A DNA stretch of 57,792 nucleotides, from the IMG/VR virus record IMGVR_UViG_3300043420_000463, positions 1 through 57,792 of that record; one strand, 5' to 3'. The DNA is from a virus. Every line of letters begins with the position of its first letter. Position 1 is the stretch's first letter. Made by a program: the position numbers and the translations under genes. The notes beneath the pieces were generated by a model that worked only from the letters and a program-made list of their open reading frames with translations, did not search any database and was not told the DNA's origin. This document shows positions 2,097-41,493 of this stretch, one piece after another.

Positions 2097-2801
2097 ATGG
2101 AAATTGATCTACACAATTTTTTCAGGTTCTACAAACACGAGAACCCCCAACACGCTGCCGCTGTACAGTGGCTAGAAGATAACCTACCAAAAGAATATCT
2201 TGACGACAATTCTGAGTGGGTTAAGATCTTCAGGAAACCAGCACCTGCCGCTGCTGGTGGTATCACAAACCCTCTCAAGGTTCCCTACTACCCACAGACA
2301 GATAACTACACTAACGCCGAGCGTACATGTAACTCATCTTCCTGTGCTATGTGCCTAGAGTATTTCAAACCAGGAACACTACCTGCTGGTCCTAAGGGAG
2401 ATGATGCTTATGTCAAGGAAGTATTTAAAATCGGTGACACTACAGACCATGCTGTTCAGACTAAAGTTCTAGAAAAGTTTGGTGTTAAATCACACTTCTC
2501 ATACAACCTATCATTTGCTGATCTCGATAAGCAACTTGCTGCTGGTAGACCAGTAGTAATCGGTATCCTCCACAGAGGTCCTCTTAGTGCTCCTAAGGGC
2601 GGTCACATGTGTGTAGTCATCGGCAAGAAGGGTGAAGACTACATCGTTAACGATCCTTATGGTGATCTAAACGATGGTTACTCATCGGATGTTATGAATG
2701 GTAAGGGTGCTGTGTACAAGAAGTCACACCTTGCTAAGCGTTGGAACCCAGCAGGTAACGATGGTTGGGGTCGTATCTTCGATCAACCACTCCCAAAGTA
2801 G
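2097..2801 (+). CDS. C39-type papain-like peptidase (virion-associated)
   Basis: A 234-residue product with the order of catalytic elements of the C39/papain-like superfamily: Cys78 in RTCNSSSCAMCLEYF, His170 in KGGHMCVVIGKK, and Asn185-Asp186 in IVNDPYGD. The first 50 residues are a helical extension before an Ala-rich linker. The role is probably peptide or peptidoglycan cross-bridge cleavage during entry or lysis. The frame ends at TAG 2799-2801, directly after a C_CCA_AAG heptamer. A -1 slip there continues through a linker into the GH24 lysozyme frame and gives a 418-residue two-domain protein (see 2792-2830). A late-type box lies upstream. Confidence 0.85.
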   Translation: MEIDLHNFFRFYKHENPQHAAAVQWLEDNLPKEYLDDNSEWVKIFRKPAPAAAGGITNPLKVPYYPQTDNYTNAERTCNSSSCAMCLEYFKPGTLPAGPKGDDAYVKEVFKIGDTTDHAVQTKVLEKFGVKSHFSYNLSFADLDKQLAAGRPVVIGILHRGPLSAPKGGHMCVVIGKKGEDYIVNDPYGDLNDGYSSDVMNGKGAVYKKSHLAKRWNPAGNDGWGRIFDQPLPK

Positions 2802-3352
2802 CAAGCGGCAGTGGCCCTGCTGCTGCCGCTGAACCTACCGCTCCTGCCCCTGCTTGGGGTGCTGGCGGCGGTGCTAAGACTCCACCCGACGAGGCACCCC
2901 CTGTTGGTTTGAAGTTAATCAAGGAATTTGAAGGTTGTCATTTGGAGGCTTACCCTGACCCTCTTTCAGGAGGACCCCCAATCACAATTGGATGGGGGTC
3001 CACAAGAGACAAAAACGGAAACCCCTTCAAATTGGGAGACAAAATTAGCCAAGATGAGGCAGATGCCTTACTCGTGGACCAATGCCGTAAGCAGTTTATA
3101 CCTTCGCTGCGTAAAATTCCATTTTGGGACGAAATGAGTGATGGACAAAGAGGCGCTTTGCTCAGCTTCGCTTATAATCTTGGGGCTGGTTTCTACGGTG
3201 GTTCTAACTTTAATACTATTACTAAACGCTTGAAGAATAAGGAGTGGGACTTAGTGCCCGAAGCATTATTCCTCTATCGTAATCCTGGTAGTCATGTTGA
3301 AGCAGGTCTTGCCCGCCGCCGTAAGGCAGAGGGCGAACTTTGGAAGTCTTGA
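2765..3352 (+). CDS. GH24 (T4-type) lysozyme domain, probably made as a -1 frameshift fusion
   Basis: The frame encodes a phage GH24 muramidase that cleaves the MurNAc-GlcNAc bond of peptidoglycan. Its start LIKEFEG is followed by the catalytic pattern Glu-x8-Asp-x8-Thr (E in FEG, D in YPDP, T in TIGWG) and the helical GALLSFAYNLG and GLARRRKAEGELW segments. There is no ATG upstream of the domain. The only in-frame starts are a TTG at 2765 inside the peptidase gene and a TTG with no Shine-Dalgarno next to the domain. About 40 residues of Ala/Pro/Gly linker precede the domain. Expression by -1 frameshift from the C39 gene (184 residues added after Lys234) is therefore the preferred model; a sequencing indel is the alternative. 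Confidence 0.85.
   Translation: MGSYLRSTTPKVASGSGPAAAAEPTAPAPAWGAGGGAKTPPDEAPPVGLKLIKEFEGCHLEAYPDPLSGGPPITIGWGSTRDKNGNPFKLGDKISQDEADALLVDQCRKQFIPSLRKIPFWDEMSDGQRGALLSFAYNLGAGFYGGSNFNTITKRLKNKEWDLVPEALFLYRNPGSHVEAGLARRRKAEGELWKS
2792..2830 (+). promoter_or_regulatory. Candidate programmed -1 ribosomal frameshift signal
   Basis: The heptamer CCCAAAG (2792-2798) lies in the C39 peptidase frame as C_CCA_AAG, the X_XXY_YYZ arrangement for simultaneous -1 slippage, with the zero-frame stop TAG immediately after. Five bases later a perfect 8-bp stem (2804-2811 with 2823-2830) begins; two G-U pairs and one G-C can extend it to 11 bp with a 5-base loop. The -1 frame is open from here to 3349 and encodes the lysozyme domain. 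Confidence 0.7.
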
Positions 3353-34363: not shown

Positions 34364-34397
34364 AATAAATATAGTTGGACCAACTATCTCTATTTAG
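34364..34397. promoter_or_regulatory. Divergent late boxes flanking a palindrome
   Basis: Plus strand AATAAATA (34364-34371), minus strand CTAAATAG (34397-34390). Between them is a perfect palindrome, ATAGTTGG-A-CCAACTAT (34371-34387). The box pair fits the divergent gp4 and tail-tube genes; the palindrome could be a protein-binding site or a hairpin at both RNA 5' ends. Confidence 0.5.
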
Positions 34398-34398
34398 T

Positions 34399-35169
34399 GT
34401 GGCAAAAGGCATAGCAAAATTTATTGACGTGATGGCCAAGCAAGGCGGCATGTCATATAGCAACAACTTTGATGTTGAATTTATGTTCAACAAGTCCCAG
34501 CATACTGACTTAAGATCTAGATTCAAAACCTTTGGTATTGACTTTGGAAATCTAGGTACTAATGCTACAGATGCTGATGAAAATGCTAAGGGAACACCAA
34601 CAGATGTGTTGAAAATGTTTTGTGAAGAAGCACAGATTCCTAATGTTCAAGCAGCAACAGGACAACTCAATGGAAGATTGATGGGAGAGGGTCAGGTAAA
34701 TTATGCTCACACAAAATTGTATACAGACTTCCAATTAGGATGGATGTGTGATGCTAACATGACTCCCCTTAAATTTCTTAACGCTTGGTACTCTTTTATT
34801 TTTGAGGAGTATGATGAAAAGGGAGTTGCTATTCTCGGATCTGCTGGTGGCGGAAACTATGCTAAAAAAGATGCTAGACTTCGTGATTTGAAGAAAGAAA
34901 CTGGTCTCATTGGTAGTAGAGAAAAGTCTGTACGCCTAAGATTTCCCGATGAATATCAATGTAATGTTGCCATTACTAAGACAGAGAAAGGAAGTAGTGC
35001 TGCTAATAGTAGAGGATCAATGATGTATACTTTGATCGATTGTTTTCCTTATGCTATTGATGCTGTACCATTATCATATGGGGCATCACAAGTTACTAAA
35101 GTTACTGCTAACTTCTACTACTCTAAGTACAGTGTTGTGTATAACGACATCACTAAGTTCAGGGGATAA
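34399..35169 (+). CDS. Tail-tube/baseplate tube-initiator family protein (gp54-like)
   Basis: A 256-residue protein of the tail-tube family. SYSNNFDVEFMF begins the first strand, MFCEEAQIPNVQ and GQLNGRLMGEGQVNYAHTK are conserved, then LYTDFQLGWMCDANMTPLKFLNAWYS, and the end VTKVTANFYYSKYSVVYND is typical of tube and cap proteins. GTG 34399 keeps the helical N-terminus; ATG 34432 is the alternative, and neither has a Shine-Dalgarno. It could be gp54 or another tube-like protein. It starts the plus-strand baseplate block. Confidence 0.65.
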   Translation: MAKGIAKFIDVMAKQGGMSYSNNFDVEFMFNKSQHTDLRSRFKTFGIDFGNLGTNATDADENAKGTPTDVLKMFCEEAQIPNVQAATGQLNGRLMGEGQVNYAHTKLYTDFQLGWMCDANMTPLKFLNAWYSFIFEEYDEKGVAILGSAGGGNYAKKDARLRDLKKETGLIGSREKSVRLRFPDEYQCNVAITKTEKGSSAANSRGSMMYTLIDCFPYAIDAVPLSYGASQVTKVTANFYYSKYSVVYNDITKFRG

Positions 35170-35193: not shown

Positions 35194-35919
35194 ATGTCTA
35201 CACCATTACCTACTTTGTCTGTGCCAACTTTCGAGTTGACACTACCATCGACGGGAAAGACAATTAAATACAGACCATTCCTAGTCAAAGAAGAAAAGAT
35301 TTTGCTTCTTGCTATGGAATCTGAAGACGAAAAGATGATTGAGAATGCTGTTAGAGATATTCTCAAGTCATGTATTCAAACCAGAGGGATTAAGATCGAT
35401 AGTTTGGCATCGTTTGATCTCGAATATCTATTTCTTAAGATTAGAGCAGTATCTGCTGGTGAAACTGTACAGATGAAAGTTACTTGCTTGGATGATAACC
35501 AAACACAAGTATCTGTCACTGTAAATTTAGATGATGTTAGTGTACAGAAGCCAGAAGGTCATACTAATAAGATTATGCTTCAGGATAACATTGGCATGAT
35601 CATGAAGTATCCTGGTGTAGATCAATTTATTAACATCACCTTATTAAATAAAGACTTAACCACCACAGAAGAATTGTTTAAAGTTATTGCTGGATGTGTG
35701 GATCAAATCTTTCAAGATGAGGAAGTCTGGGACTCTGCTGATATGAAACAGGAGCAGATCATTGAGTTTTTAGAAGGCATGACTCCACAACAGTTCGAAA
35801 CTGTACAAACATTCTTCGAAACTATGCCTGTTCTTAAGCACCAGTTTAAAGTTACCAATCCAAATACTGGTGTCGAATCTACATACACGTTGGAGGGTCT
35901 ACAATCTTTTTTCGGATAA
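35194..35919 (+). CDS. 26: Baseplate hub assembly protein gp26
   Basis: A 241-residue homologue of T4 gp26 (T4 gp26/gp51 family). The N-terminus PTFELTLPSTGKTIKYRPFL leads into the family core FLVKEEKILLLAMES, then helices (EDEKMIENAVRDILKSCI, DLEYLFLKIRAVSAGE). It helps baseplate hub assembly. The last codons TCT TTT TTC GGA TAA form a T_TTT_TTC slippery heptamer (35907-35913), and the -1 frame opens straight into gp51, giving a possible 301-residue fusion, similar to tail-assembly chaperones of other phages. Confidence 0.85.
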   Translation: MSTPLPTLSVPTFELTLPSTGKTIKYRPFLVKEEKILLLAMESEDEKMIENAVRDILKSCIQTRGIKIDSLASFDLEYLFLKIRAVSAGETVQMKVTCLDDNQTQVSVTVNLDDVSVQKPEGHTNKIMLQDNIGMIMKYPGVDQFINITLLNKDLTTTEELFKVIAGCVDQIFQDEEVWDSADMKQEQIIEFLEGMTPQQFETVQTFFETMPVLKHQFKVTNPNTGVESTYTLEGLQSFFG

Positions 35920-35956
35920 GCATGTTCTATAATACTCTAGAGAATTATTATAGAAC
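35907..35956 (+). promoter_or_regulatory. Candidate -1 frameshift signal between gp26 and gp51
   Basis: The slippery heptamer TTTTTTC lies in the gp26 frame as T_TTT_TTC. The -1 frame has no stop before gp51 and reads through its ATG. A perfect 10-bp stem (GTTCTATAAT 35924-35933 with ATTATAGAAC 35947-35956) starts 10 bases downstream. The spacer is slightly long and the stem A/T-rich. Confidence 0.55.
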
Positions 35957-36098
35957 AAACTTCTCTCTCATGCAGCACCATAAATATAGCTTGACAGAGA
36001 TTGAAAATATGATGCCTTGGGAGAGAACTGTGTATGTTTCCCTATTGAATAATTGGATTAAAGAACAAGAAGAAGCTAGGAAAGCAGCACAAAAATGA
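35922..36098 (+). CDS. 51: Baseplate hub assembly protein gp51
   Basis: A 58-residue helical protein (MFYNTLENYYRTNFSLMQHH, MMPWERTVYVSLLNNWIKEQEE). This pattern, especially the MPWERxxYV helix, is that of cyanophage gp51 and of the T part of tail-assembly chaperones (G/GT-type). It acts with gp26 on hub assembly. It can be translated from its own ATG, three bases after the gp26 stop, or as the -1 extension of gp26. It overlaps the next gene by ATGA. Confidence 0.78.
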   Translation: MFYNTLENYYRTNFSLMQHHKYSLTEIENMMPWERTVYVSLLNNWIKEQEEARKAAQK

Positions 36099-39000
36099 TT
36101 CCACCAAAGGCAATCAAGAAGATTAAGAATGATGCCCACAGGGAGATAGTTGTTGGGCACTTGATTGCCTATGGTTTCTTCCCAAGTACTAGTGAAGGTA
36201 TAGATCAAGCAAAGAAATTTGTTGCTGGATTAGATCAGTGGATTGCTCCATCTGATCTGCCAAATTATTATGATGATCTAGAAAGTGATCTAATGACTGG
36301 CAGAGAGACTGCTGGTATCGTGAACATCAGAATGATCTTGGAAGATTTTTACTTTGGTGGTGGTAGTGGACTCTCGGCACAAGAATCCGAACCAGAAAGC
36401 ATACCTGTCGAGGTAGAAATTGTTGAGGTCGAGCAAAAAGAACCAGACGAACCTATTGTAATTCAAGTTGAAGCTCCATTTGAAAATCCTACTAACCCAA
36501 ACAAGCGCCGTAGAATCAGAGCAAAGAGAATTAAAAATACTATCAAGGTAAATCGTCAGAAGAAAAAAGATCTTGCCACTAGAATGGCAGATGCTTTTGA
36601 TAGAAATCTTGAAGACTTAATTGATAATATCAGAAACCCAAAGGCACCAGCGCCACCAAAAACTAGAAGAAAAAAGAAGCAAGTTCTAGTACAGAAGCGT
36701 GCCAAGAAAGTAGCAGCAAAATTTGACACAAAAGATCCAAATAAAGCGGCAACATTTAATGAGTTCTTAGGAATCAAACTCAAGAATGCTTTTGGACGTG
36801 CTGCTGAAGCCAGAAGATTAGCAAAAGAATCTGGTGCGGAACCCCAGGGTAGAGGATATTTTTTAAAGAAAGCACTTGGGTTTGAATTTGGTGGCGATAA
36901 GATTGCTAGATTAAAAGGTACATTCTCTAAGAATCCTGCTGCTGTAAATGATCCAGCACTTTCTAGAGATCAAAGATTCTTAGCTGGCATTGGTAGTGAC
37001 ATCACTCCACCACCAGTAAGACAACCAGAACTATTTGACACTAGTAAGTATGCCAGAACTGGTGTCAGTAAAGTATTCAGTGATAATTTAGATCGATTAA
37101 AAGAATCTTTCAACAAGGTAGAGAAGAGATTTAACGATGTAATCTCTATCAAAAAGAACAAAGCAGATAATAACGATGCCTTAAGTGGCATGGCTAAAAC
37201 TGTAGAATCTTTAAAGAATATTCTTAAGAAGAATAATAAAGTTCAATCTGATATTAACAAGACTAAAGACAAGCAGTTAGATTTCTTACAAGAGTTAGCA
37301 GAAGAAACTCAGGCTGGTTTAGAAGAAGCAAGTATTGAAGAGACTGTAGATAATTCTGATGTAATTAAACCTAGCAAACCAGAGTTCTTGAAAGACAAAG
37401 GTGGTGCTGGTGATGATGAAGATGATGATGGGGGTGGCGGCGATGATGATGGGGGTGGTGGCGGACTCTTTGATTTCGTTGACTTCTTTGATAGAAAGAA
37501 AAGAAAGAGACGTAGGAGAAGGAGACGTGGACCTAGAGGAAGAGGTCCACGTGGACCTAAAGGTGGTGGTCCAAAAAAACCTGGACCGTTAAGAAGATTT
37601 AAAGACTTCATGGGTAGAGGTGCTGATAAAGCAAAGGACGTACTATCAAAAGGAAAGAATGCTGGTGGAAAACTGTTATCTAAAGGTAAAGGTCTAGCCG
37701 CTGGTACGCTAGCAGCAGGAACTGGGTTACTTGCAACTGCTAACAGAGGTGTTAAAAGTTTTGGAGACAACGCTCTCAATATAGGAAAGGGAGCGATGAA
37801 TTGGTTTACCGATAGCCCTGTTGCCAAGAGAATTGGTTTGGCATCAGGTAAGTTCGGCGGTAGAATGGTTCCTGGTGTTGGTACGGCATTCAGTGCTGCT
37901 GATGCGGCAGACAGGGCTTCTCGTGGCGATAAGATCGGGGCATGGTTGGCAGGCACTGGAGCGGTTTCTGGTGCCGCTACAGTTGCCACTAGTGGAGCTG
38001 CTCTTACTGGTTGGGGAGCACTGGTGCCAGCGGCAACCGAACTCACATCAGCAGTAGCAGACGTTGCTTTGTTTGGATATGATATTTTCAATGCTATTAC
38101 TGGAAGAGACCCAGGAGGACAACAGAGAGAAAAATTAAACGCTGGTGGGGTAGTTCCTGCTCAGATTGGTGAAGCTGGTCCTGAGATGTTGATTAGGAAT
38201 GGAGGAGCAACTGGAGGAGGAATGAATCCACTACAGTCACTAGCACCAATGATTGTTGCTCTACGTGAGGTCACAAAACGTGCTGGAACTTGGGCAGATC
38301 CTATTGAGAACATGGTGAGACAGGTTACAGATCCCATCGCTAAACAATTAAACTTACCAGTGCTTCCTGTTGACAGCAAACTAGGAGAGGTTAAAGCGGG
38401 AGCAATTAAACCAGAAGATGAGTTTGGTTTCTTTGGTAAGTTATTTGGTTTTGGTAGACGTGGTGAAGACGGGGAAGGTGATGGTAGTACCACAGGATCT
38501 GACAACAGTACTGTTCCTATTACTGGCATACCTTTGGGAGAAAGTCAGACAGCTCAAGCAGGACAATTAGTTTCTGGTTTAGTATCAAGAGGATTTACTA
38601 AAGAAGAAGCAGCTGCTATCGTAGGCAACTTGTGGGCAGAATCTGGGTTCAGAACTGGTGCCGTCAATCCATCTTCGGGTGCTTATGGTTTGATGCAATG
38701 GTTGGGTGGTAGAAAGAATCGTTTAGTACAGTTTGCTCAGGAGAAAGGTAAATCTCCTGCTGATCTAGATCTACAGTTAGATTACATTGCTTGGGAATTA
38801 AAAGGTGGAAACCCATACGAAACCAAACAATTTGAAAAGGCAATGGCATATGGTACATCCATTGCCGACAAGACTAGAGGATTTGCCCAGGAGGTTGAGA
38901 GAGCTGGGGCACATGAACTAGCATCTTCCATGGCAAAAAGAGTTGGCGCTGGAGAATCTGCTTTTAATGCTGTAGCAGTCGCTCCACCACCAGGAGCAGC

Positions 39001-39226
39001 ACCACCACAGCAACCAAATAATTTGTTCCTCAACCCATCTCCACAGCAACAAACTCCATCGCCACTACTTCCACCAGCAGCTCCCGCTAATCCATCACTG
39101 GCGATATTAAATATGCCAGCTGTATCACAACCAAGCGGCACATCCAAACCAGCACCGAGACCAGCAACTCCTGCTTTGTTTGACTGGTCTAAAGCTGTTA
39201 AAGATGCTCGTCTGAGCAACAACTAA
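36095..39226 (+). CDS. Large hub/tape-measure-like protein with C-terminal tail lysozyme domain
   Basis: A 1043-residue protein. Residues 1-90: helical domain (IKKIKNDAHREIVVGHLIAY). Residues 250-300: a block shared with the next gene (FGGDKIARLKGTFSKNPAA). Residues about 435-500: acidic Gly/Asp run followed by a very basic stretch (RKKRKRRRRRRRGPRGRGP). Residues 530-700: hydrophobic, helix-rich part, then GEAGPEMLIRNG as in many tape measures. Residues about 820-955: tail lysozyme domain (IVGNLWAESGFRTG, GAYGLMQWLGG). The C-terminus is Pro/Gln-rich. It probably sits in the tail lumen and is ejected, acting as tape measure with peptidoglycan-cutting tip. It directly follows the putative chaperone pair. 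Confidence 0.72.
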   Translation: MIPPKAIKKIKNDAHREIVVGHLIAYGFFPSTSEGIDQAKKFVAGLDQWIAPSDLPNYYDDLESDLMTGRETAGIVNIRMILEDFYFGGGSGLSAQESEPESIPVEVEIVEVEQKEPDEPIVIQVEAPFENPTNPNKRRRIRAKRIKNTIKVNRQKKKDLATRMADAFDRNLEDLIDNIRNPKAPAPPKTRRKKKQVLVQKRAKKVAAKFDTKDPNKAATFNEFLGIKLKNAFGRAAEARRLAKESGAEPQGRGYFLKKALGFEFGGDKIARLKGTFSKNPAAVNDPALSRDQRFLAGIGSDITPPPVRQPELFDTSKYARTGVSKVFSDNLDRLKESFNKVEKRFNDVISIKKNKADNNDALSGMAKTVESLKNILKKNNKVQSDINKTKDKQLDFLQELAEETQAGLEEASIEETVDNSDVIKPSKPEFLKDKGGAGDDEDDDGGGGDDDGGGGGLFDFVDFFDRKKRKRRRRRRRGPRGRGPRGPKGGGPKKPGPLRRFKDFMGRGADKAKDVLSKGKNAGGKLLSKGKGLAAGTLAAGTGLLATANRGVKSFGDNALNIGKGAMNWFTDSPVAKRIGLASGKFGGRMVPGVGTAFSAADAADRASRGDKIGAWLAGTGAVSGAATVATSGAALTGWGALVPAATELTSAVADVALFGYDIFNAITGRDPGGQQREKLNAGGVVPAQIGEAGPEMLIRNGGATGGGMNPLQSLAPMIVALREVTKRAGTWADPIENMVRQVTDPIAKQLNLPVLPVDSKLGEVKAGAIKPEDEFGFFGKLFGFGRRGEDGEGDGSTTGSDNSTVPITGIPLGESQTAQAGQLVSGLVSRGFTKEEAAAIVGNLWAESGFRTGAVNPSSGAYGLMQWLGGRKNRLVQFAQEKGKSPADLDLQLDYIAWELKGGNPYETKQFEKAMAYGTSIADKTRGFAQEVERAGAHELASSMAKRVGAGESAFNAVAVAPPPGAAPPQQPNNLFLNPSPQQQTPSPLLPPAAPANPSLAILNMPAVSQPSGTSKPAPRPATPALFDWSKAVKDARLSNN

Positions 39227-39249: not shown

Positions 39250-41493
39250 ATGGCTAGTTCCACCGTTAGTTATAAAAAAGCAGACACAGGAGATCTGGCA
39301 GGATATCTTGCTGGTAAAGTTAAGTCTGCTGCGGGGATGGCAGCAGAGGAAAGAAAGAGTAGAGACGAAGAAGTAAAAGCATTAGAAAAAGAAATTTCAC
39401 ATCTCGAATCGAAAGAACTTCTTTCTGATGATCAGCGACAAAGATTAGATGATGCTAAATCCAGATTTAATTTTTTAACAGAGCAACAATCTGGCAGGAA
39501 GGGATCTTTTTTTGGTAAAGCATTAGCATCTGAATTTGGTGGAGATAGATTCAGGAGAATGAAAGGTACTTTCTCCAAAGATCCTGCTGCTGAGAACGAT
39601 CCAGCATTATCGAAAGGAGAAAGGTTTACTGCTCTATTAAACAAAGCAGAAGAACCAGTTAAACCAGAGTCTCCCTACACTCAATTGTCTCTGCCAGGAA
39701 TGGAAAGTGAGGGAGGTAATGGTTTACAAACGTTTTTAGATAGAACATTCAAGACTGTTGCCGCTTCTTATGATAGAATTGCTGATAAAGTTTCCGCTTT
39801 AGGAGCAGCAGAGAAAGAATCTGTACAGCAAGATGCCAACAACAATAAGTTTCTTAATAGTATATCGTCGGGTTTAAAATCGTTCAAAGAATATTTTTCT
39901 AAAGACAATAAACTCAAGCAACAAGAAAATAATATTGAAATTGAACAGCTAGAGTTAAACATCGAGCAGAAAGAAGAAGCAGACATGGCCTCTGCTGAAG
40001 CAAGATTAGAAGCAGAGAAAGATACTAGTACAGTCAAGCAAGTTCGTACACCTTATGGTGGTGGAGGAGAAGACCCCATGGGAGGGGGAATCTTCGATAG
40101 GTTATCAGGATTCATGAATTTCCTGAGTGATATGGGTGGGGGAATGCTAGACTACGTTGATGAGAAACGTAGTACTCGTCGTAAACCACCAAGAAAATCA
40201 CCAGCAACGCCAAGAAAAACTCCCCAAAAGAAACCTAGATTTAGACTACCATTTAGAAGAAAATTTGCTGAAGGTGGTGTCTATGATAATCCAACTAACG
40301 TTGGATTGAACCCAGGAGATTCAGTTATCCCACTGAACAGAAATAACGCTCTGTCTAAAGTATTTAAAGGTGCTGGTAGCAAAGCAGATACCAGCATGGT
40401 AACTCCAATGTCACAAGTTATGCAACTACCAGCTCAAGTTGGTGGTGGTCTGCTGCTTGGATTGCTGTCACAAACTATCAATAAACTTGGCGGAGTTTCT
40501 ACAATATTAAAACCTATCATTGGTAAGATTGCTCAACCTTTAGCATTAGCATTTGGACTGCCTGCTACTATTGTTGGGTCGATGTTTGGAGGATCTGCTC
40601 AAGCAGCAACATTCGATCCCAGTTCTTATTTGAGTGGTGCTGCTACTGGTGGTGGGGGTGGTAGAGGTCGTGGTCGTGGAGCAGGAGCAAACCCACCAGG
40701 AGCTGGACCTGTTACACCAACAGGAACAATTTCTGCTGCTCCAACTGGAAACGAAACAGGTCTTCAATCATTAAGTGGTGGCACCCCAACTACAATAGCA
40801 GCTGGTTCTACGGTATCAAATACCCAACTACATCATGGAAAAGAAGACATGAGACGTGGGTTTAGGGTACGTGATTATTTTATTGGCGGCAAGAGTGGTC
40901 CTAGTGATGGTAGCGATGGACTTGGCGCTAAATTATACACACCACTGGGATTTGGTCCTGTAAAATATAAGAAATTAGACGCTCATGGTATAACATTCCA
41001 CGATCCACAGACAGATCAGAAAGTTGGTATGTATTATCACGTTAATGATCCACAACATCATCTAGATGGTCAAGTACTACAACCAGGAACACTAGTTGGT
41101 ACACAGGGAGGATTGCCTGGAACTCCTTCCGCTAATCCAGGAAGTAGTTCTGTTCACTTACACGTAGAGGGTACAGATCAATTCCACAATGCTGTTATTG
41201 CTACATATGCTGGCGGAAATGTATTGAAAGCACCTGGAGTTCATAGTCAGGTAGCAGCAGCAAACCCAGCAGCTACTGGTACTAGAAATGGTTTGGGATT
41301 GACTGCTCAACCCACTGCTGGGACCCCACAAATGCCACCACCTGCTGCTAATGGTCAGCAAGCATTGGCAAATATTATTGCTATGAATACGCAGAGAGAA
41401 GCACAACAGAAACAAGGTTTAGGTTTAACCAATCAATTTCCTGTGTCTAATGCTCTAACAACACCAAACTATTATGGAGGCACTGGTTGGTAA
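39250..41493 (+). CDS. Hub/tape-measure-like protein with C-terminal M23-like domain
   Basis: A 747-residue protein and partial paralogue of the gene before it: residues about 84-130 repeat the shared block (FFGKALASEFGGDRFRRMKG, FSKDPAAENDPALS). A helical region with Glu/Gln repeats follows (about 200-260), then a basic stretch (TRRKPPRKSPATPRKTPQKK) and FAEGGVYDNPTNVGLNPGDS, a tape-measure-like element. Residues about 527-655 resemble M23 peptidases: late motif SSVHLHVEG with His-x-His, an HLDGQVLQPGTLVG strand; the first metal ligand is less clear, so activity is uncertain. C-terminus rich in Ala, Pro and Gln. Confidence 0.7.
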   Translation: MASSTVSYKKADTGDLAGYLAGKVKSAAGMAAEERKSRDEEVKALEKEISHLESKELLSDDQRQRLDDAKSRFNFLTEQQSGRKGSFFGKALASEFGGDRFRRMKGTFSKDPAAENDPALSKGERFTALLNKAEEPVKPESPYTQLSLPGMESEGGNGLQTFLDRTFKTVAASYDRIADKVSALGAAEKESVQQDANNNKFLNSISSGLKSFKEYFSKDNKLKQQENNIEIEQLELNIEQKEEADMASAEARLEAEKDTSTVKQVRTPYGGGGEDPMGGGIFDRLSGFMNFLSDMGGGMLDYVDEKRSTRRKPPRKSPATPRKTPQKKPRFRLPFRRKFAEGGVYDNPTNVGLNPGDSVIPLNRNNALSKVFKGAGSKADTSMVTPMSQVMQLPAQVGGGLLLGLLSQTINKLGGVSTILKPIIGKIAQPLALAFGLPATIVGSMFGGSAQAATFDPSSYLSGAATGGGGGRGRGRGAGANPPGAGPVTPTGTISAAPTGNETGLQSLSGGTPTTIAAGSTVSNTQLHHGKEDMRRGFRVRDYFIGGKSGPSDGSDGLGAKLYTPLGFGPVKYKKLDAHGITFHDPQTDQKVGMYYHVNDPQHHLDGQVLQPGTLVGTQGGLPGTPSANPGSSSVHLHVEGTDQFHNAVIATYAGGNVLKAPGVHSQVAAANPAATGTRNGLGLTAQPTAGTPQMPPPAANGQQALANIIAMNTQREAQQKQGLGLTNQFPVSNALTTPNYYGGTGW

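Follow-up and report, generated by a model that had tools for sequence, protein, structure and literature searches.

The window analyzed comprised positions 1 to 57,792 of IMG/VR virus record IMGVR_UViG_3300043420_000463, i.e., 57,792 bases, from a marine virus of cyanobacteria (a cyanophage). The genes of the locus follow each other in the order tail tube, gp26, gp51, and tape-measure-like gene (Table 1), with gp26 and gp51 in the position of a tail assembly chaperone (TAC), between tube and tape measure. The ATG of the tape-measure-like gene overlaps the stop codon of gp51 (ATGA). The product of gp26 matched PF12322 with 239 bits (cut-off 24.5), which places it in the T4 gp26/gp51 family. 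The −1 frame extension, i.e., the gp51 tail, matched the C-terminal end of phrog_150 as well as phrog_634.

Table 1. Genes and sequence elements of the gp26–gp51 locus in the window.
Feature	Position	Strand	Basis
Tail tube gene (gp19-like), upstream of gp26; ORF start as listed mechanically	34375..35169	+	PF23849, E 1.7e-51; phrog_45, E 9.5e-37
gp26, putative short chaperone form, 241 aa, 0 frame	35194..35919	+	PF12322, E 6.1e-71; phrog_150, E 2.7e-76; AlphaFold2 model
SD-like GGAGGG, likely upstream stimulator	35892..35897	+	Position; conservation in representatives; anti-SD pairing; Glu codon bias
Slippery heptamer T_TTT_TTC, in the correct phase for −1 tandem slippage	35907..35913	+	Sequence; conserved as TTTTTTN
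0-frame stop codon TAA of gp26	35917..35919	+	Sequence
−1 frame extension, 61 codons after the predicted slip plus stop, gp51 inside	35907..36098	+	Open frame; phrog_634, E 1.2e-29
gp51 as conventionally called, ATG 35922, 58 aa	35922..36098	+	This ATG is missing in many relatives
5' arm of the 12-bp downstream stem	35923..35934	+	Starts 9 nt after the heptamer
3' arm of the 12-bp downstream stem	35946..35957	+	Pairs with 35923–35934
Tape-measure-like gene with tail lysozyme domain	36095..39226	+	PF18013, E 3.5e-28; phrog_9570 (tape measure), E 1.8e-24

The 3' end of gp26 reads TCT TTT TTC GGA TAA, and the heptamer lies there in the phase that the sequence-only reading had given it. That reading was also correct in that the −1 frame passes without a stop into gp51, including its ATG: the frame is open from 35907 through ATG 35922 to TGA 36096–36098. 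Frame analysis likewise returned the length of 301 residues (240 + 61) claimed earlier for the predicted gp26–gp51 fusion, which would have a mass of about 34 kDa and would contain the junction-spanning peptide ...QSFFRISMFY....

Downstream, the adjacent genes 36095–39226 and 39250–41493 both matched phrog_5453 and shared a common block of 185 residues (31% identity, E 3.5e-21), which suggests that the tape-measure region has undergone a tandem duplication.

Slippery heptamer and flanking signals

The sequence TTTTTTC is not rare in the window: it occurs 18 times, with 20 occurrences expected. The raw count was therefore rejected as uninformative, and only the phase, the place, and the conservation of the heptamer matter. 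Among the window's ORFs of at least 100 aa (33 on the plus and 18 on the minus strand), only one besides gp26 had a heptamer in phase at its end followed by a long stretch open in the −1 frame. At 2097–3352, an ORF ends in CCC AAA G TAG, with CCCAAAG at 2792 in phase; the −1 frame runs there for 183 codons into lysozyme-like sequence, without an early ATG, and this frame break is either a second frameshift or a sequencing error.

We compared the gp26–gp51 junction in relatives, as had been proposed from the sequence alone, and found the same arrangement at nearly every locus. In-phase TTTTTTC was present in all 80 nearest IMG/VR relatives (49–100% identical in gp26), exactly 10 nt before the gp26 stop in 79 of them and 7 nt before it in one, and gp51 was in the −1 frame in 78/78 scorable close loci. 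When close and distant relatives were taken together, in-phase TTTTTTN was found near the gp26 end in 113 of 114 loci (TTTTTTC in 107, TTTTTTT in 4, and TTTTTTG in 2), including phages of Stenotrophomonas, Xanthomonas, Vibrio, Aeromonas, Cronobacter, Sinorhizobium, and Rhizobium. Dereplication of the 114 loci at 92% identity left 84 representatives, 83 of which carried the heptamer, with gp51 in the −1 frame; the single representative without it, Vibrio phage D533, had a TAATG overlap instead.

The conservation also bears on the quality of the sequence. T homopolymers are error-prone, and contig L120 apparently lost a base nearby, so that the frame break might be read as a sequencing error within a gene that is really a single in-frame fusion. 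This reading is refuted by conservation across many assemblies, since the same break recurs in 113/114 loci and likewise in complete isolate genomes, e.g., those of S-PM2 and Aeh1, and we give it practically no weight. Regarding L120, a Menderavirus contig, an apparent indel relative to L119 changes its frame near the gp26 end; a homopolymer error is probable there.

Codon choice at the heptamer was fixed. Among 64 clade representatives, its two Phe codons were TTT in 64/64 and TTC in 64/64, against a background of 72% TTT and 28% TTC elsewhere in gp26, and the preceding base was T in all 64, whatever the amino acid. The junction thus combines a conserved in-phase X_XXY_YYZ motif with constraint at synonymous sites, as in programmed −1 frameshifting. 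The pattern is real and far beyond chance.

Upstream of the heptamer, an SD-like element was found. In the window, GGAGG ends 10 nt before the heptamer; at 9–10 nt upstream, 29/83 representatives carried GGAGG and 28/83 carried GAGGG. Pairing with the anti-SD sequence peaked at this element (mean −7.3 kcal/mol over the representatives), and its Glu codon was GAG in 56 and GAA in 6, compared with 31% GAG overall. In the window the element lies about 25 nt from the gp51 ATG, which is too far to serve the initiation of gp51. Judged from the sequences compared, GGAGGG is likely an upstream stimulator of the frameshift.

Downstream, the sequence-only reading had described a perfect 10-bp stem; the stem itself was confirmed (folding z about −3.3), but it is longer, 12 bp. 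The 60-nt segments following the heptamer folded better in the relatives than controls did (mean z −1.44 vs. −0.23). RNAalifold kept only 4 pairs for the whole clade, probably because stem registers differ between subgroups; an 11-bp stem was instead examined by itself. It starts 6 nt after the heptamer, is paired in 80.2% of cells, and reached a covariation of 0.255; shuffles gave 0.142 (0/500), and slid controls did not exceed 0.133; the shuffle statistics are inflated by relatedness, and the slid controls weigh more. At the covarying pair 45–59, UA occurred 28 times, AU 12 times, and GC 10 times. The clade thus has a covarying downstream structure whose spacing falls within the 5–9 nt of a programmed −1 frameshift site, although a stem was not recognizable in every relative. 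The window stem lies in another register than the clade's covarying stem, and S-PM2 has the window stem as well.

These elements also bear on transcriptional slippage on the T run, which could produce the fusion in place of ribosomal frameshifting. The T6 run is indeed conserved, and it is extended to T7 in a few relatives; however, a C in seventh place nearly always keeps the run from growing, and a run of six T is short for slippage by RNA polymerase. The SD-like element and the stem are in keeping with a signal read by ribosomes, and we consider slippage during transcription very improbable.

Starts of gp51 and the T4 lineage

We analyzed the first 12 codons of the −1 frame in the 83 representatives. 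An ATG near the start of the frame was present in 55; in 28 there was no ATG, and in 16 neither ATG, GTG, nor TTG was found. The encoded gp51 tail was well conserved even in the start-less relatives, in which frameshifting is therefore the only evident route to gp51. Several of these tails carry no annotation, e.g., those of Cronobacter S13 and Aeromonas AS-szw. In Aeromonas phage Aeh1 (L131, 119007–119723, minus strand), a gp51 tail that has no start codon follows T_TTT_TTC in the −1 frame; in a 2010 report, the genome of this phage was the sole one without gp51 among 26 T4-like genomes (PMC3037559).

An ordinary pair of overlapping genes would require that gp51 be translated from its own start by stop–restart coupling and that the heptamer reflect mere Phe-Phe codon use. 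The ATG at 35922, only 2 nt after the gp26 stop, would suit this arrangement, as would the ATG near the frame start in two-thirds of the representatives (55/83) and the heptamer-less TAATG junction of Vibrio phage D533. It does not account for the representatives without an ATG (28/83) or without any start codon (16/83), nor for the Phe codons fixed as TTT TTC in 64/64, and the conserved SD-like element stands too far from the ATG for initiation. The long gene of T4, moreover, fuses the same two parts. As a replacement for frameshifting, two overlapping genes are very unlikely; in addition to frameshifting, separately initiated gp51 may be made by stop–restart (TAAGCATG) where starts like ATG 35922 exist, the window included.

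Genes 26 and 51 of T4 are adjacent and divergent. T4 gp26 consists of PF12322 alone (E 8.8e-64), whereas T4 gp51 has a PF12322 domain (residues 1–201, E 3.9e-52) followed by a tail; the two proteins are recognizably homologous to each other (E 2e-6). The tail alone of a T4-type gp51 (contig L108) matched phrog_634, the cyanophage gp51 family (E 8.8e-9). The Phe-Phe pair was kept in T4 gp26, but as TTC TTT, so that the heptamer is gone, and no heptamer was seen in the nine T4-type gp26 genes of IMG/VR contigs (0/9). Searching whole records with the profile gave a count of two PF12322 genes for T4, whereas the ten related genomes had a single one each; nine of these ten carry the heptamer, and the tenth is D533. 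According to this tally, the short-plus-long pair is made either by a frameshift or by two genes, and T4 would obtain the same two products from paralogous genes 26 (short) and 51 (long).

The sequence-only reading had stated that relatives with the two genes far apart would refute a frameshift pair. The genes are indeed separate in T4, but T4 gp51 is itself a gp26 domain with a gp51 tail, i.e., the long form as a gene of its own, and the exception therefore supports the idea.

In two lineages, the D533 group of Vibrio phages and the Ackermannviridae, gp51 has stayed in the −1 frame and the canonical heptamer is missing. In Vibrio phage D533 (L088, 3160–3180), gp51 overlaps the gp26 stop, and a search of IMG/VR with its protein gave no matches. 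In the Ackermannviridae (Kuttervirus Maynard, Kuja, and Taipeivirus IME250), a gp51-like tail was found in the −1 frame of gp26 homologues, and no canonical X_XXY_YYZ was present at the junctions (L142 near 2013, L143 near 1944, and L144 near 2013). A single frameshifting gene with a three-part signal may be ancestral in T4-like phages, the T4 type having duplicated it into 26 and 51 with decay of the heptamer, and the D533 group and Ackermannviridae having kept the −1 layout, lost the canonical heptamer, and come to make the long form in some other way; we regard the chances for and against this history as even.

Protein models and proposed decoding of the gene

The AlphaFold2 model of the window gp26 had a pLDDT of 91.2. 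Among 1000 PDB candidates compared, the best matches were to its N-terminal 97 residues: uncharacterized protein 3fgx (Z 7.9) and HK97 TAC 2ob9 (Z 7.5); the third-best match lay well behind (Z 4.8). Values of Z 7.5–7.9 are below the level that would be decisive by itself; the comparison of the model supports, but does not prove, a TAC fold of the N-terminal domain. In the model of a long form (gp51 of contig L108, pLDDT 92.2), the tail appeared as three added helices; Foldseek gave no significant match of this model in the PDB, and VIA-align listed no chaperone for it. A sequence search of the PDB gave no credible relatives. The locus has the coding capacity of a TAC, namely for a short product and a C-terminally extended one sharing the N-terminal domain. 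In the literature, T4 gp26 and gp51 are hub assembly chaperones, and gp51 is absent from the particle (PMC3004832); the same review cites genetic data that the T4 hub contains gp26.

The reading we prefer, with a probability of about 0.93, is that gp26 and gp51 are one TAC gene decoded in two ways by a −1 slip on T_TTT_TTC. Most ribosomes would finish gp26 at the stop codon at 35917 and release the short form. In a smaller share, held up by the downstream stem and the upstream anti-SD pairing, the Phe-Phe codons TTT TTC would re-pair with TTT TTT after a slip of one base back on the heptamer; translation would then go on in the −1 frame and yield the long form of 301 residues, in which gp51 would be the additional helical domain at the C-terminus. 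With lambda G/GT as the model, the role of the short form would be to coat the tape measure protein, whose gene comes next, and tail tube subunits would be recruited through the tail of the long form. The comparative sequence evidence supports coding for two products; what we infer beyond it are the act of slipping, how efficient it is, and what each form binds. The central proposal of the sequence-only reading, a −1 frameshift pair, is supported by the phase, the invariant heptamer, the start-less relatives, the flanking stimulators, the gene order, and the HK97-like model.

Already in 2010, it was noted as odd that cyanophage gp51 matches no more than the final fifth of T4 gp51 (PMC3037559). 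One gene with a frameshift would explain both this short gp51 and the gp51 reported missing in Aeh1, and many proteins annotated separately as "baseplate hub assembly catalyst" would be fragments of a longer chaperone. Frameshifting and gene duplication, as two sources of a short and a long chaperone, offer a natural comparison.

Comparison with known systems

The layout of the signal resembles that of bacterial dnaX, in which an SD-like element about 10 nt upstream, a heptamer, and a downstream stem-loop form the frameshift cassette; dnaX differs in its A_AAA_AAG heptamer and truncated product, whereas the window has T_TTT_TTC and an extended product. The slippery heptamer of lambda G/GT is G_GGA_AAG, and the gp26 domain is larger. 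The likeness to gpG/gpGT comprises a −1 frameshift, predicted in the window, near the gene end, a position before the tape measure gene, and a minor C-terminally extended form (PMC5009743). The same 2016 review describes G-T frameshifting as a feature that long-tailed phages widely share, T4 being the exception. Regarding HK97 TAC (2ob9), 86 residues superposed on the N-terminal 88 residues of the gp26 model (Z 7.5, rmsd 5.2 Å, 8% identity), and the remaining gp26 domains had no clear match. The TAC locus of Vandenendeviridae/Andersonviridae, described for phage Adele (PMC12846349), is similar in locus layout and motif: its −1 extension is conserved, and a T-rich slippery motif precedes the tape measure gene; its motif, however, is GTTTTT.

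The closest system is that of the T4-like phages themselves. Vladimirov, Gautam, and Davidson (2022, Virology 566:9–15) are credited with identifying gp26/gp51 as the tail chaperones of T4-like phages. Citing that article, the authors of PRFect state that some T4-like phages, in place of a frameshift, have a short gene together with a long fused one (PMC10274946), and the Adele paper states that TAC genes of T4-like phages carry poly-T slippery signals (PMC12846349). The link between gp26/gp51 and tail chaperones, presented as new in the sequence-only reading, had therefore already been published, and the idea of a frameshift pair is supported by our analysis but, judged by these citations, anticipated. 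So far as we can tell, the contributions of our analysis are how widely relatives lack a start codon, a signal of three parts whose stem covaries, the tally of one-gene and two-gene genomes, and the explanation for Aeh1. The window has the protein family and the short/long logic that are attributed to the 2022 article; T4 has two divergent paralogous genes, whereas the window has one gene with a putative frameshift.
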